From positions 1 to 57,038 of the forward strand of contig NZ_FOOC01000013.1 in NCBI RefSeq assembly GCF_900113085.1: a DNA stretch of 57,038 bases. Reading direction: 5' to 3'. The position numbers were made by a program, and so were the translations under genes. Within the stretch, counting starts at the first letter, position 1. The number at the start of each line of letters is the position of its first letter. The stretch comes from Fontimonas thermophila. Lineage in GTDB: Bacteria; Pseudomonadota; Gammaproteobacteria; Nevskiales; Nevskiaceae. Below, in pieces: positions 11,970 through 16,750 of the stretch. Under the pieces are notes generated by a model, which was not told where the DNA came from, did no database searches, and saw only the letters and a program-made list of their open reading frames with translations.

Positions 11970-13496
11970 TCAGAGCAGGGCAAGGACTTCTTCGGCGGCG
12001 CGTTCGCCCGAGCGCACGGCGCCGTCGAAATAGCCGTTCCAGACTTCCGCGGTTTCGGTTCCGGCCCAGTGCAGCCGTCCGATCGGGGCCCGCAGGGCCT
12101 CGCCGTAATCGAGCCAGACGCCCGGGGGCATGTAGCCGGCGTAGCAGCCGCGCGTCCATTCCTCGGCAGCCCAGTTCTTTTCGATGTAGTCGAGCGGTTC
12201 GGCCGCCTGCTCGCCGAAGTAGCGCACGAAGCTGTCGATCACGCCCTGCCGTCGCTCCTCGCGGCTCTGGCGGAGTGCACGACGGCCATCCTCGCCCTCG
12301 ATGAAGCCCATCATCACGCCGACGTGCGCATCCGGCGGTGAGTTGTCGAACGTGATTTTCACCGGGCCAGTGTCGCTGGTGACCTGGCCGTTGAGGCCGG
12401 AATCGCGCCAGAACGGGGTTGGATAGACGCACTGTACTTTGATCACCGTGCCCATGGGCACGCGCTGGGTGAGTTGATCGCGCAATCCGTCGAGTGCGGG
12501 CGAGTAGCGGATGCGGCCGGCCAGGGTCGGCGGGATTGCGATGATCGCGCGCTGTGCGCGGACGCTGAAACGCTCGCCGCGTACTGTCACCGATCGGGCA
12601 TCGTACGCGATCTGGGTCACCGGCGCGTTGAGCAGTACTCGGTCTCCCAGTTCTTCGGCCATGCGCAATGCGATGCGTTGCGAGCCGCCGACGATGCGTG
12701 ATTCCTGGGCCCCGCCGGTGGTATTGATCAGGTGGTCGAGGCTGCCGGCCGAATGGATGTAGAACAGCACATGCAGCAGGGATAGATCGCGGGGCTGGGC
12801 GCTGAAGACGGCCTCGATCGCGAGTTGCAGCAGATCACGCCCTCCCGGCGTGAACAGATTCGCATCCACCCACGACTGGAAGGTTTGGCTGTCCCAGGCT
12901 ATGGCATCGGTGGCGGTCCATGGTGCCTCAAGGGGTACGCGCGCAGCCATGTCGTTGAGCTGCTGGATGGCGACGGCGGCTTCTGCGGCGCCAGCCGGAT
13001 CCGTCGGGGGGATACGGTTGAGTCCGAGGTTCAGCGGATCGGCCGGAAAGAGGTGGCCGTAGGGGACGAGCTGGCCATTGCGATAATCAAGGTAATCGCC
13101 GATGTCCCAGGTCTTGAACGTTTCCAGGCCCAATTCCGCGATCAACGCGAGGACGCGGTCCTGCGTCGGTCCGACCCATTGGCCACCGACTTCAACGATC
13201 GTCCCTGGCCGGGCCGGAGCGGCCAGCGGGTGATTGAGGGCGCGCCCGCCGACGCGGTCGCGTGCTTCAACGACCAGCGTGCGCACACCCGATGCCGTGA
13301 GGCGGCGAGCCGCGGTCAGACCGGCCAGACCGGCGCCGACGATGACGACGTCGGTTGTGTGATCGCCGCTGGCCGTGTCGGCGGCATGGGCTGCCGCGAG
13401 CGGACTGCTGTCACCGCAGCCGGTCAAGGCAGCACCGGTGCCGAGAAGGGTGGCGCCGGCAAGCAGGCGGCGGCGGGTGTGATCAATGTCGGTCAT
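11970..13496 (-). CDS. Exported FAD-dependent amine oxidase (lipoprotein, Tat-type signal)
   Basis: A 508-residue flavin monoamine oxidase-like enzyme that would oxidise a primary or secondary amine to aldehyde, ammonia and peroxide. The N-terminus has a twin-arginine stretch RRRLLAG (residues 8-14) and a lipobox LTGC (24-27), so it is probably exported folded and lipidated. The FAD dinucleotide motif VIVGAGLAGLTAARR covers residues 52-66, with GGRA next to it. Near the end, LHWAGTETAEVWNGYFDGAV is the family's C-terminal FAD-binding signature. It lies 111 bases downstream of the GDPD-nitrilase fusion gene on the same strand and is probably co-transcribed with it. The amine substrate is unknown. 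Confidence 0.9.
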   Translation of the reverse strand: MTDIDHTRRRLLAGATLLGTGAALTGCGDSSPLAAAHAADTASGDHTTDVVIVGAGLAGLTAARRLTASGVRTLVVEARDRVGGRALNHPLAAPARPGTIVEVGGQWVGPTQDRVLALIAELGLETFKTWDIGDYLDYRNGQLVPYGHLFPADPLNLGLNRIPPTDPAGAAEAAVAIQQLNDMAARVPLEAPWTATDAIAWDSQTFQSWVDANLFTPGGRDLLQLAIEAVFSAQPRDLSLLHVLFYIHSAGSLDHLINTTGGAQESRIVGGSQRIALRMAEELGDRVLLNAPVTQIAYDARSVTVRGERFSVRAQRAIIAIPPTLAGRIRYSPALDGLRDQLTQRVPMGTVIKVQCVYPTPFWRDSGLNGQVTSDTGPVKITFDNSPPDAHVGVMMGFIEGEDGRRALRQSREERRQGVIDSFVRYFGEQAAEPLDYIEKNWAAEEWTRGCYAGYMPPGVWLDYGEALRAPIGRLHWAGTETAEVWNGYFDGAVRSGERAAEEVLALL

Positions 13497-13607
13497 TGGT
13501 TCTTCCTCGGTTTCATGGAAGGTTTCATGGGCGCGGTGCGTGTTCGGTGTGCTGCCGGAGCGTGCGGGATGTACGGCCGCGATCCGCGCTTCGTGGGCTG
13601 CCGCGGA

Positions 13608-16040
13608 TCAGCGGGTGAAATCGGCCCACACCGCGGTCTCCAGATAGTCGTTCTCCAATGCATCGCCGCTGCCGGGTGCGAGTGCGGCCGCGACGGCGCG
13701 CAGCTCGGCGCGCGGCGCATCGGGGACGACCCATGGTGCCAGTGCGATGAATTCGCGCTTTTCACCCTGGAATACGCGATAGGCCTCGAGATCAACGCCG
13801 GGTTCGAATTCCAGGTTGCCGACGTAATGCCGTAGCGGCGCCTGCGCACCGCGGGCGGTGATGGCCGACTGCCCGTCGAAGACCAGATCCAGCAGATTGC
13901 CGACCAGATGCGGGGTGACGTTGTAGCGGAAGCGCACCGTTGGGTCGGCGACGGTGCGCCAGGTCGACAGCATCCATTCCAGCGGTTGCCAGCCTCCCGC
14001 CTGGTTCGTGGCCCAGCGTCCGGGATTGGCCTCGGCCTGGATCACCACGTCGACGCCGAGCGCATCCATGCACGGCATGTAGCGGGCGCGCACGTCGGCG
14101 CAGGGCTGGAAGTCTGCCGGGCGCTGACCGAAGTCATAGCCCCACTGAAAAGCCGGCAGCGAGGTGGCAAATCCGAGGCGGAAACCTTCGATCTCGATGC
14201 CCGCGGCGTTGGCCAGTGCGGCATCGCCCTCGGCGGGACCTTCGTCGAGTGCGAGCACGGTCAGCTCGATGTCGGTCAGCGGCACCTTGTGGTTGCGGAA
14301 CAGCAGATTGGTTTCGCCCTTGGGCGCCTCGGGATGGATGTCCACCGGCCCCCAGATCGCGGTCTGGTTGGTGACCACCGGTTCGGTGGCGATGTACACC
14401 TCGTCGACGGAATCCAGGTCTGGATCTTTGAACAGCGCGATGTCGAGTGGGTCGCGCGAGGCACGGTACCGCGCCATGTTGTTGGAGGCGACGACATAGA
14501 CGCCATAGTCACGCGCGATGTCGGAGAAGGTCTGCGAATAAGCGCGCGCGAACGTATCGGTGGCGGCGAGCAGCACCTGTTTGCGCGGATCGACCGGCCC
14601 GAACATGGCCTGATAAGCGGCGATCTGCGGTGCGTAGGATGTGTTGAGCAAGCCCAGTGCGGCGACGATGCCCAGTGGCGCCGCATCGCCGGCCGGCGCA
14701 CGCAGCGGGGTTTGCGCCTGTTCGCGCACCAGCGCTCCGCGCGAGCCGGTGGCCAGCGTCATCAGGCCGATGTCTTCGTTGAACACGACCAGCATCGGCA
14801 GACCCGGTTGCATCAAGGGCACGGCGTGATCTTCCATCAGGCAGCGCATCTTGGTCCGAAAGCTCGCATAGCTTTCGACGTGGCGGACGTCGTGCTTGAA
14901 CTGGATACCGACGACGCGCAGTCTGGCGTGGGGTGCTGCAGCACCGCTGGCCGGTTGCCAGCGCGCCGGCCGTAGCGCGGCGCACACCTCCGGGCTGGGC
15001 CGGTCGGGCATGCCCGGCAGCGGATTGCCGGGCGACGGCGGACAGGCCGGCAGCGGCGGCACGCCGTCGGGCGTGAGTTTGTCCGGCAAGGGGCGTTGTC
15101 GCAGATGCAGGGCGCAGCCCGGGTAATTGGTGATCAGCCCGTCCACGCCCAGTGCAAGCGTCGTCTGCTGATCGCGCGCGGTATCGACGGTATAGGGCAC
15201 CACGGCCTTGCCTGCTGCGTGCGCGAGTGCGACGAACGCAGCGTCGAAATCGGGTGCGTCGAAATTCGGGGCACTGATGTCGTGACCGCCGGCAGTCGTG
15301 TAGGCGAGATTCATCGTTGCCGTCTGGCCGGTACTGCTGGTGGTCAGCAACTGTGTGCGGATTGCGGGATTACGGCGTTTGACCGCATCCAGCGTCGGCG
15401 GCCAGAACGATTGCACGACGATGCGTTCGGCAAGAGCGTAGGCTTCCAGCAAGGGCAGCAGCACGTCGGCGCTGCGTGTGCCGACCGGATCGAAGTTGGT
15501 TTCGCCCGGAATGTTCTTGATTTCGATCGACAGCCGTGGCGGGCAGGGCAGGGTTGCGTGCCAGTCCAGCACCTCGCGCAAGCTCGGTATCCGCACGCCG
15601 GTGCCCCGCAACGGATGCGCCAGCCCGGTGTCGGGCGCGGTCGTCGCCTGTCCGGGCGCAAACCAGTAAGCCGCATCGCAGGCGCGGATCTGTGCCAGCG
15701 TCCACGCGCCGACGGTGCCGCTGCAATCGGTGGTGCGGTCGAGGGTGTCGTCGTGGATCACCACGAGTTCGCCGTCGGCGGTGAGCTGGACGTCGAGTTC
15801 GATTTCATCGACCCCCAGGCGGACAGCGTTGGCAAAGGCCAGCAGGGTGTTCTCCGGGGCATAGGCCGCACCGCCGCGATGCGCCGAAACGAAGCCACCA
15901 CTGCTGTGCAGCGTGCAGGCCCCGGCCTGTATCTGCGGCCGCTGCGACGATCCACAACCCAGCAGCGCGGCTGCAAGGACACCAGCGCCGATGCGCCACA
16001 AGCCGCGGTCCCGCCCAATGCCCATGCCCCGTCCCCACAT
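13608..16040 (-). CDS. Lipoprotein fusing a glycerophosphodiester phosphodiesterase with a nitrilase-type carbon-nitrogen hydrolase
   Basis: An 810-residue exported protein with lipobox LLGC at residues 26-29. Residues about 50-330 form a GDPD domain with full catalytic signatures: HRGG (54-57), PENT (62-65), EIELDV (79-84) and VIHDDTLDR (H96). From about residue 385 (RLRVVGIQF) a carbon-nitrogen hydrolase domain follows. It shows a candidate Glu (VVFNEDIGL), Lys (NHKVPLTD) and Cys (PCADVRARYM) as a nitrilase triad. A proline-rich linker joins the two. The pairing suggests cleavage of both a phosphodiester and an amide in one lipid-derived substrate, which is inference. It is first in an operon with the amine oxidase. 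Confidence 0.85.
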   Translation of the reverse strand: MWGRGMGIGRDRGLWRIGAGVLAAALLGCGSSQRPQIQAGACTLHSSGGFVSAHRGGAAYAPENTLLAFANAVRLGVDEIELDVQLTADGELVVIHDDTLDRTTDCSGTVGAWTLAQIRACDAAYWFAPGQATTAPDTGLAHPLRGTGVRIPSLREVLDWHATLPCPPRLSIEIKNIPGETNFDPVGTRSADVLLPLLEAYALAERIVVQSFWPPTLDAVKRRNPAIRTQLLTTSSTGQTATMNLAYTTAGGHDISAPNFDAPDFDAAFVALAHAAGKAVVPYTVDTARDQQTTLALGVDGLITNYPGCALHLRQRPLPDKLTPDGVPPLPACPPSPGNPLPGMPDRPSPEVCAALRPARWQPASGAAAPHARLRVVGIQFKHDVRHVESYASFRTKMRCLMEDHAVPLMQPGLPMLVVFNEDIGLMTLATGSRGALVREQAQTPLRAPAGDAAPLGIVAALGLLNTSYAPQIAAYQAMFGPVDPRKQVLLAATDTFARAYSQTFSDIARDYGVYVVASNNMARYRASRDPLDIALFKDPDLDSVDEVYIATEPVVTNQTAIWGPVDIHPEAPKGETNLLFRNHKVPLTDIELTVLALDEGPAEGDAALANAAGIEIEGFRLGFATSLPAFQWGYDFGQRPADFQPCADVRARYMPCMDALGVDVVIQAEANPGRWATNQAGGWQPLEWMLSTWRTVADPTVRFRYNVTPHLVGNLLDLVFDGQSAITARGAQAPLRHYVGNLEFEPGVDLEAYRVFQGEKREFIALAPWVVPDAPRAELRAVAAALAPGSGDALENDYLETAVWADFTR

Positions 16041-16042
16041 CG

Positions 16043-16061
16043 TTTATCGTACGCGTATAAA
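16043..16061. promoter_or_regulatory. Second quasi-palindrome in the divergent intergenic region
   Basis: TTTATCGTACGCGTATAAA has five matching outer base pairs around overlapping CGTACG and ACGCGT palindromes. It starts three bases upstream of the GDPD-fusion start codon, between it and the TetR gene. It may be a promoter element or a weak second operator. Confidence 0.3.
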
Positions 16062-16074
16062 TTAGGTGGACGCC

Positions 16075-16088
16075 TTTGACCGGTCAAA
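16075..16088. promoter_or_regulatory. Candidate TetR operator, perfect 14-base palindrome
   Basis: TTTGACCGGTCAAA is a perfect inverted repeat in the gap between the divergently transcribed GDPD-nitrilase gene and the TetR gene, 18 bases before the chosen TetR start. TetR proteins usually bind palindromes in just such gaps. It also argues against the in-frame TTG at 16076 as the TetR start, because that would put the operator inside the gene. Confidence 0.5.
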
Positions 16089-16105
16089 CCTTGTCGTGGT
16101 CTGAA

Positions 16106-16750
16106 ATGTCCCGATCATCCGCTCGAGTTTCCCGTGCATCGCGCATCGGCCGTCCGCGGCGCACGCCGGATCAGTCGGCCGAGGTACGCGCGCGCGTCAT
16201 CGAAGTGGCGCGCCGCTTGTTTGCCGAAGAGGGCTTCGAGGCCGTGAGCATGCGCCGCATCGCCGCGTCGGCCGGCTGTGCGCCGATGACGCTGTATGGG
16301 TATTTCCACAGCAAGAACGAGATCCTGCGCTATATCTGGGCGGTGTTCTTCGACGAGTTGTTCGCGCGTATCGCCAGTGTCGGTACCGAAGGTCCGGCGC
16401 ATCTGCGCCTGCGCCGTGTCTGCACGATCTATCTCGATTACTGGATCGCGCATCCGGACCGCTACCGCATGGTGTTTCTCAATGAAGATCGGGTGGGACC
16501 TGGCGAGCGCTACTACGTCGAATCGTCGGCAATCGTCGAGCGCTACGGGTGTTTTTCCGATCTCGTCGCCGCGGCCCAGGCCGAGGGTATGGCCTGGCCC
16601 GGCGATCCGCGACGACTCGCCGAGACGCTGGTCTGCGGCTTGCAGGGCATCGCCCACTGCCTGATCACCGTCCCCGAGTATCCGTGGTCTGCATCGGCGG
16701 AACAGCTGCTCGAGCGCATGCTCGCTGTCGTGCTGCGGCTCGCGGCATAG
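16106..16750 (+). CDS. TetR/AcrR-family transcriptional regulator
   Basis: A 214-residue regulator from ATG 16106. The N-terminal DNA-binding domain reads RRLFAEEGFEAVSMRRIAASAG then CAPMTLYGYFHSKNEILRYI, a standard TetR helix-turn-helix. The rest is an all-helical ligand domain, similar to those with a C-terminal WHG-type region. It is divergent from the GDPD-nitrilase / amine-oxidase pair, so it is the likely local repressor, perhaps released by an amine or lipid product. An alternative TTG start at 16076 adds ten residues and would overlap the palindrome. Confidence 0.88.
   Translation: MSRSSARVSRASRIGRPRRTPDQSAEVRARVIEVARRLFAEEGFEAVSMRRIAASAGCAPMTLYGYFHSKNEILRYIWAVFFDELFARIASVGTEGPAHLRLRRVCTIYLDYWIAHPDRYRMVFLNEDRVGPGERYYVESSAIVERYGCFSDLVAAAQAEGMAWPGDPRRLAETLVCGLQGIAHCLITVPEYPWSASAEQLLERMLAVVLRLAA

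Follow-up and report, generated by a model that had tools for sequence, protein, structure and literature searches.

The question raised by this locus is what is made by two adjoining genes for exported lipoproteins and a divergent regulator gene in Fontimonas thermophila. The window, by which we mean the whole stretch of 57,038 nucleotides that was analysed (G000:C18; loci and genomes are cited below by L and G numbers), belongs to a genome of 2.73 Mb in 28 contigs that is 99.59% complete. With a probability of about 0.5, the locus is read as an exported, locally regulated module leading from amide to amine to aldehyde, with a nitrilase-fold hydrolase whose site is Glu-Lys-Ser. Outside the cytoplasm, the hydrolase would release an amine from an amide or ester, and an amine oxidase, exported in folded form through the twin-arginine (Tat) pathway, would oxidise that amine to an aldehyde, ammonia and hydrogen peroxide. 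An N-terminal glycerophosphodiester phosphodiesterase (GDPD) domain, found in the lineage of the window and in some Actinomycetota, may take off a phosphodiester-linked part beforehand. Transcription would be blocked by a TetR-family regulator bound to TACNNGTAC just after the -10 box until a ligand binds. The genes and domains concerned are as follows.

11970-13496, minus strand: amine oxidase gene; 508-residue Tat-exported lipoprotein, flavin amine oxidase of the monoamine oxidase (MAO) type; PF01593, E = 2.4e-77
13608-16040, minus strand: gene for the GDPD/nitrilase-fold fusion, an 810-residue lipoprotein
13614-14999, minus strand: nitrilase-fold domain, residues 348-809, in which Ser occupies the nucleophile position; from AlphaFold2 and Foldseek
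15117-15881, minus strand: GDPD domain, residues 54-308; PF03009 positions 1-243 of 244, E = 2.9e-46; PDB 5t91, E = 7.8e-27
16106-16750, plus strand: divergent TetR-family regulator gene, 214 residues from the ATG; TetR_N, E = 1.3e-15; TetR_C_33, E = 2.3e-9

The layout agrees with an earlier reading of the sequence (the original prediction), in which a divergent TetR gene faced two same-strand genes for exported lipoproteins, 111 bases apart, the first containing a complete GDPD and the second being a flavin amine oxidase. The export signals, identified as patterns in the sequence, are the lipobox LLGC in the fusion, and TRRRLL (Tat) together with the lipobox LTGC in the amine oxidase.

The C-terminal part of the fusion (480 residues, 331-810) had no CN_hydrolase match in Pfam even at E 10, its only line there being a chance-level Tryp_inh (E = 0.086), and a PDB sequence search with the domain returned one match, also at chance level. 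Its AlphaFold2 model, built with 22 homologues, had a mean pLDDT (per-residue confidence) of 89.8 and a pTM (predicted TM score) of 0.91. When compared with the PDB by Foldseek, it gave 68 matches at E <= 0.001, the best at 9.9e-8 with probability 1.00. The 50 of these that were listed were all nitrilase-superfamily proteins, at 9-17% identity and with TM scores normalised by target of 0.25-0.65; they included amidases, Nit2, the Drosophila pyrimidine-degrading enzyme, formamidase, vanin-1 and NAD synthetase. The predicted model thus has the alpha-beta-beta-alpha nitrilase fold. The full-length model was weaker (pLDDT 75.1, pTM 0.56), and the conclusions therefore rest on the domain model.

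A connection to PF00795 was also made through distant kin. The family hidden Markov model found L047, L048, L052 and L056, each of which exceeds the PF00795 cut-off of 23.2 bits (40.8 for L052, 24.0-26.7 for the other three); L049 fell below it, and L043, L046 and L050 had no match. Homology to PF00795 is thereby reached solely through these four intermediates, three of them narrowly. The nitrilase-type domain of the original prediction is upheld by the predicted fold and this bridge, though not by any direct Pfam match nor by the Glu-Lys-Cys set assigned to it; it is kin of the superfamily by fold and descent, not a Cys-type enzyme. What it shares with PF00795 proteins is the predicted fold, the Glu and Lys positions and a nucleophile placed at a strand end after G-x-x-x. 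It differs from them in having Ser rather than Cys, a conserved Cys pair, an export signal, no visibility to Pfam and a greater length caused by insertions (462 model positions against 256). Apolipoprotein N-acyltransferase Lnt likewise has a nitrilase-fold domain, and a lipid-linked substrate according to passages of PMC5500890, but Lnt, a membrane protein, has Cys as its nucleophile, whereas the window protein has Ser and a lipoprotein anchor. Among the distant kin, L047, L048 and L056 carry long C-terminal stretches that by eye have the look of repeats (propeller-type), with no Pfam match there at E 0.01.

The residues of the putative active site, placed by alignment, are encoded as follows.

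14160-14162, minus strand: codon of Ser627 (S297 of P0001), aligned to the nitrilase catalytic Cys; invariant, 22 of 22
14265-14267, minus strand: codon of Glu592, possibly equivalent to the second Glu that some amidases have
14286-14288, minus strand: codon of Lys585, putative catalytic Lys
14775-14777, minus strand: codon of Glu422, putative general base

The core set comprised 22 loci, namely the window together with all but one of the 22 loci from the homologue search (L022, with GDPD alone, was left out), and rose to 25 with L063, L064 and L075. In an alignment with the bridging sequences and nitrilases of the window's own genome, the nucleophile column held Ser in the window and all 22 aligned core rows and Cys in the nitrilase rows. 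The segment around it, ATSLPAF (A295-F301), was invariant across the 22 core rows, in all of which the Glu422 and Lys585 positions were also conserved, so that by alignment the putative catalytic Glu and Lys are in place. In the AlphaFold2 domain numbering, predicted strands 86-89, 249-254 and 290-295 precede E92, K255 and S297, respectively. Three further core loci (L035/L075, L041/L063 and L042/L064) had the same Ser, which brings the total to 25 of 25, and in the wider clade it was found in 29 of 30 rows. The nucleophile position is therefore Ser627 and the set is Glu-Lys-Ser, not the Glu-Lys-Cys proposed originally. An invariant pair of Cys residues, Cys647 and Cys657, lies downstream of Ser627 and was considered as a source of the Cys; the pair was rejected, as both follow the nucleophile segment and fall opposite gaps in two canonical rows, with L052 aligning a Cys to the first.

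A second Ser branch with the motif I/T-S-K-D-A-W-M-P-D was found in Actinomycetota (L047, L048, L049, L056, L090), and L052 reads C-Y-D at the nucleophile position. In a 45-row tree made by a quick method with the nucleophile column removed, the 29 Ser rows and L046 were separated from 15 Cys rows, implying one change with a support of 91; long-branch warnings were raised for L110 and one more row on the Ser side and for L052 on the Cys side, and the place of L052 is unsure. The 14 canonical rows had been picked from loci with a Cys motif and filtered again, so Cys is present there by selection. The survey behind the rows found 180 of 396 genomes, with loci read up to L114. Left out of the tree were L095/L042 and L041/L094 (core, Ser), L035 (Ser), L050/L099 (a fragment, ICYD), L045/L067/L100 (a broken gene) and L061; a later look at left-out open reading frames showed two with Cys (L111, L114) and a further one, also in L111, with Gly. 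The last of these, L111:79-1042, is a nitrilase-like reading frame outside the Ser clade, possibly an inactive form.

Glu422 and Lys585 were kept in all 29 Ser rows and all 15 Cys rows. In L046/L068 (G072), the places of Glu422, Lys585 and Ser are taken by Ala, Arg and Gly. Because the three residues are kept together and in L046 lost together, the Glu-Lys-Ser site appears to be under joint constraint and hence is probably catalytic. L046 could serve as a naturally occurring inactive control, and a natural Ser clade that keeps Glu and Lys, together with a copy that lacks all three, offers a direct test of serine function in the nitrilase fold.

The amine oxidase was most similar among PDB sequences to 8p84, 'Monoamine oxidase' (E = 5.4e-122), followed by MAO A/B at about 1e-95. 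Its GCY motif (Cys451, Tyr452) and GY (Tyr489) were kept in 15 of 15 aligned amine oxidases; in MAO B, GCY supplies the flavin-linked Cys and a cage Tyr. The Amino_oxidase domain and the cysteinyl-FAD motif place it, by sequence, among the probable monoamine oxidases, and the likeness to that group (8p84, MAO A/B, putrescine and cyclohexylamine oxidases) extends over the whole length. The enzymes found here differ from that group in their twin-arginine motif (12/15 by pattern; SRRGLI in L018 by eye) and lipobox (6/15), and in having a hydrolase gene next to theirs. MAO-type enzymes prefer aromatic or hydrophobic amines over ethanolamine, and N-acyl aromatic amines suit them better as a source than do ethanolamine lipids. 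The latter, N-acyl-glycerophosphoethanolamine among them, are one possibility for the substrate.

An amine oxidase gene adjoins the hydrolase gene in 14 of the 22 core loci (the window, L007-L016, L018, L019 and L025). In Nevskiales, L014, L015 and L025 it follows the hydrolase gene on the same strand, in L018 it comes upstream, and in two Catellatospora loci it is divergent, so that the adjacency occurs in three arrangements and two phyla. A distant member, L067, also has an Amino_oxidase gene next door; no match to the amine oxidase query was found within the stretches read for the fused L063 and L064 or the distant L065, L066 and L068. Matches to the hydrolase were found in 11 of 61 genomes of nearest relatives (the window's own included, and one being a 31-residue remnant), in 15 of 396 Actinomycetota genomes (distant members included) and in 1 of 398 genomes from Pseudomonadota at large, the window itself. 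This taxonomic spread suggests that the hydrolase was transferred from Actinomycetota to Nevskiales. We would tentatively, at a little under even odds, describe a whole nitrilase clade with a natural Glu-Lys-Ser site, distributed over Actinomycetota and passed on to Nevskiales, of which one branch is paired with MAO for extracellular amide breakdown.

The GDPD domain is complete and has the motifs of its family (HRG..PENT, E-x-D and HD in the window; HRGG, EN, E-D and HD in the alignment consensus); it is distinguished from other PF03009 members by its fusion to the nitrilase-fold domain. This fusion is not unique to the contig. GDPD was N-terminally fused in nine of the 25 core loci, in Gammaproteobacteria and Actinomycetota: the window, L004 (where the front with GDPD is found at a different contig end within that genome, L078), L006, L017, L018, L020 and L021 (these last four from genomes titled Thermoleophilaceae or Solirubrobacterales), and L063 and L064, which come from the Actinomycetota phylum search. 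It was absent from 15 of the 25, and L075, where the gene is cut, cannot be judged. In all six Actinomycetota genomes with a fused gene, the best match of the window GDPD was the fused GDPD (76-132 bits), which outscored the unfused GDPDs wherever there were other matches, in five of the six. One old fusion with later losses seems likelier than two separate fusions, although the weakest fused GDPD (G230, 75.7 bits) is no better than the best unfused ones of fusion-free genomes (G062, 88.9; G061, 78.7). In Stenotrophobium (L022:8001-9002), a GDPD lipoprotein gene stands alone among the same neighbours as surround the L006 fusion.

The regulatory features between the fusion gene and the TetR gene are the following.

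16048-16057, minus strand: probable TetR operator, TACGCGTACG, directly past the -10 box
16059-16064, minus strand: -10 box TAATTT, 17 bases from the -35 box, identified by eye
16075-16088: 14-base palindrome with the -35 box in one arm; not conserved
16082-16087, minus strand: -35 box TTGACC of the fusion/amine oxidase promoter; TTGAC conserved in 6 of 7 loci

The core TACNNGTAC was found directly past the -10 box, with boxes assigned by eye, in all seven loci that have this TetR (the window, L005, L007, L008, L010, L012 and L076) and in none of four examined loci that lack it (L006, L009, L011, L013). TTGAC lay 30-35 bases upstream of the core in six of the seven, the exception being L005. 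Of 11 genomes, six had a stricter pattern, TACRCGTACRN{0,2}ATAAA, at a single place, which was always this promoter, and the other five had none; the reversed-pattern control gave a single occurrence in all. A palindrome-like site is thus conserved together with the TetR gene at the promoter it would control, and TACNNGTAC is probably the TetR operator. The regulators beside the hydrolase in L005, L007, L008, L010 and L012 (Solimonas flava) are 59-64% identical to that of the window. L009 has a different TetR gene (by Pfam), upstream on the same strand, with homologues in the same place in L011 and L013, and in L063 a TetR gene lies beside the fusion. As for gene starts, ATG 16106 was judged more likely than TTG 16076 for the TetR gene, and a second ATG at 16025, with GGGGAC upstream, is a possible alternative for the fusion.

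The perfect 14-base palindrome of the original prediction, TTTGACCGGTCAAA, is indeed present in the gap, with an expectation of 0.03 that refers to this word at up to two mismatches and not to the chance of any palindrome. It was rejected as the operator: it overlaps the -35 box and was absent from 10 other upstream regions with up to four mismatches allowed. Of the original prediction, the association of exported GDPD, nitrilase-fold and amine oxidase proteins with a TetR gene is supported, and it recurs; the Glu-Lys-Cys set and the palindromic operator are not supported.

Several results weigh against the amide-to-aldehyde module. The Foldseek TM scores normalised by the model were only 0.24-0.40, with root-mean-square deviations of 5.5-13.6 (long insertions), and when profiles were compared directly by hhalign, two Cys nitrilases from the window's own genome matched with a probability of just 1.3%. 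L046 keeps Glu592 despite the loss of the other three residues. Two Catellatospora amine oxidases have no signal peptide, Tat motif or lipobox, although their starts are uncertain, and G003 has this TetR without the stricter operator form, its site reading TACATGTAC. In eight of the 22 core loci the hydrolase has no amine oxidase gene beside it: one lies about 10 kb off for L006 and elsewhere in the genome for L017, L020, L021 and L023, and the genomes of L004 (a small metagenome-assembled genome), L005 and L024 yielded none at E <= 1e-30; the pair is therefore not obligatory. In G036, of the window's family, the hydrolase has been lost (L076:8100-10050) save for a 31-residue remnant of its tail and, by eye, a stub at the 5' end, and the TetR gene, operator site, promoter and amine oxidase gene are retained, which suggests that the amine oxidase is useful by itself. 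Where the listed PDB titles name a Ser form (5nz5, 4hgd), it is a laboratory mutant, in one case ligand-bound, and the Ser may therefore be weak or dead.

This last point leads to the possibility, unlikely but to be taken seriously, that the nitrilase-fold domain has ceased to act as a hydrolase and binds a ligand or holds a complex, leaving the work to the amine oxidase and GDPD. Cys is the nucleophile of the superfamily, and Glu-Lys-Cys is believed to hold for all members in passages of PMC1199592. The retention of Glu422, Lys585 and Ser in 29 of 29 rows and their joint loss in L046 are what would be expected of a working site, and the ATSLPAF segment is invariant. The original proposal that an N-acyl-glycerophosphoethanolamine-type lipid is scavenged, by GDPD, then amide hydrolysis, then ethanolamine oxidation, now appears improbable. 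It gains from the recurrence of the fusion in two phyla, from fused GDPDs that are mutual best matches in 6/6 genomes, from lipoprotein anchors that fit membrane lipids, and from two genes that could mean acyl handling: an acyl-CoA dehydrogenase-like gene in the Nevskiales block (by eye) and an enoyl-CoA hydratase gene near the L024 hydrolase. It is weakened by the 15 core loci that lack GDPD and retain the hydrolase, often with the amine oxidase, and by the grouping of the amine oxidase with MAO, putrescine and cyclohexylamine oxidases, for which we know of no ethanolamine activity. Nor was any ethanolamine gene seen among 20 neighbour proteins run on Pfam, most neighbours being left unnamed.

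It is quite improbable that the genes are neighbours merely through shared chromosome history, as an inherited synteny block without joint function. The surrounding Nevskiales block is conserved too, including genes that by eye resemble those for acyl-CoA dehydrogenase and glutathione peroxidase; yet the hydrolase-amine oxidase pair is also present, in other orders, in Actinomycetota (L014-L016, L018, L019, L025), and in Solimonas a promoter with the conserved site stands in front of the pair. In lysine breakdown, an amine-oxidase-fold enzyme is paired with an amidase of the nitrilase superfamily (DavBA), and by that precedent a flavoenzyme could make an amide by oxidative decarboxylation of an amino acid for the nitrilase-fold enzyme to hydrolyse. 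Such a role is very improbable here: the amine oxidase is closest to MAO, with GCY and both tyrosines, amino-acid oxidases match at 2.2e-25 and worse, and both partners are exported, which those of DavBA are not.

The amide-to-aldehyde module is the most likely reading. Passages of PMC5500890 and PMC1199592 describe a Glu-Lys-Cys set common to the nitrilase superfamily, and branch 13 of the superfamily, according to part of PMC3547906, is a collection of uncharacterised enzymes. Among the matches listed in the open-licence literature, neither a natural Ser-type nitrilase nor this gene set was found, although a prior mention is possible; the view that no system with this fusion has been described agrees with that search. 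Together with the exported MAO, the fused GDPD and the TetR regulator with its local site, the hydrolase would make up a compact, probably inducible route, the substrate of which could be sought through what releases the TetR repressor.

Two neighbouring genes were also recorded. At L063:6511-7968, a reading frame of 485 residues begins 24 bases after the Actinomycetota fusion gene; it has no Pfam match at 1e-5 and is possibly a new partner, possibly an error of frame calling. In two Frankiaceae genomes, the hydrolase-amine oxidase pair has beside it a gene of the GH5 cellulase family (L014:11620-13311, by Pfam, and the corresponding gene of L015); not used here as functional evidence, it could be endoglycoceramidase-like and so a lead toward glycolipids.

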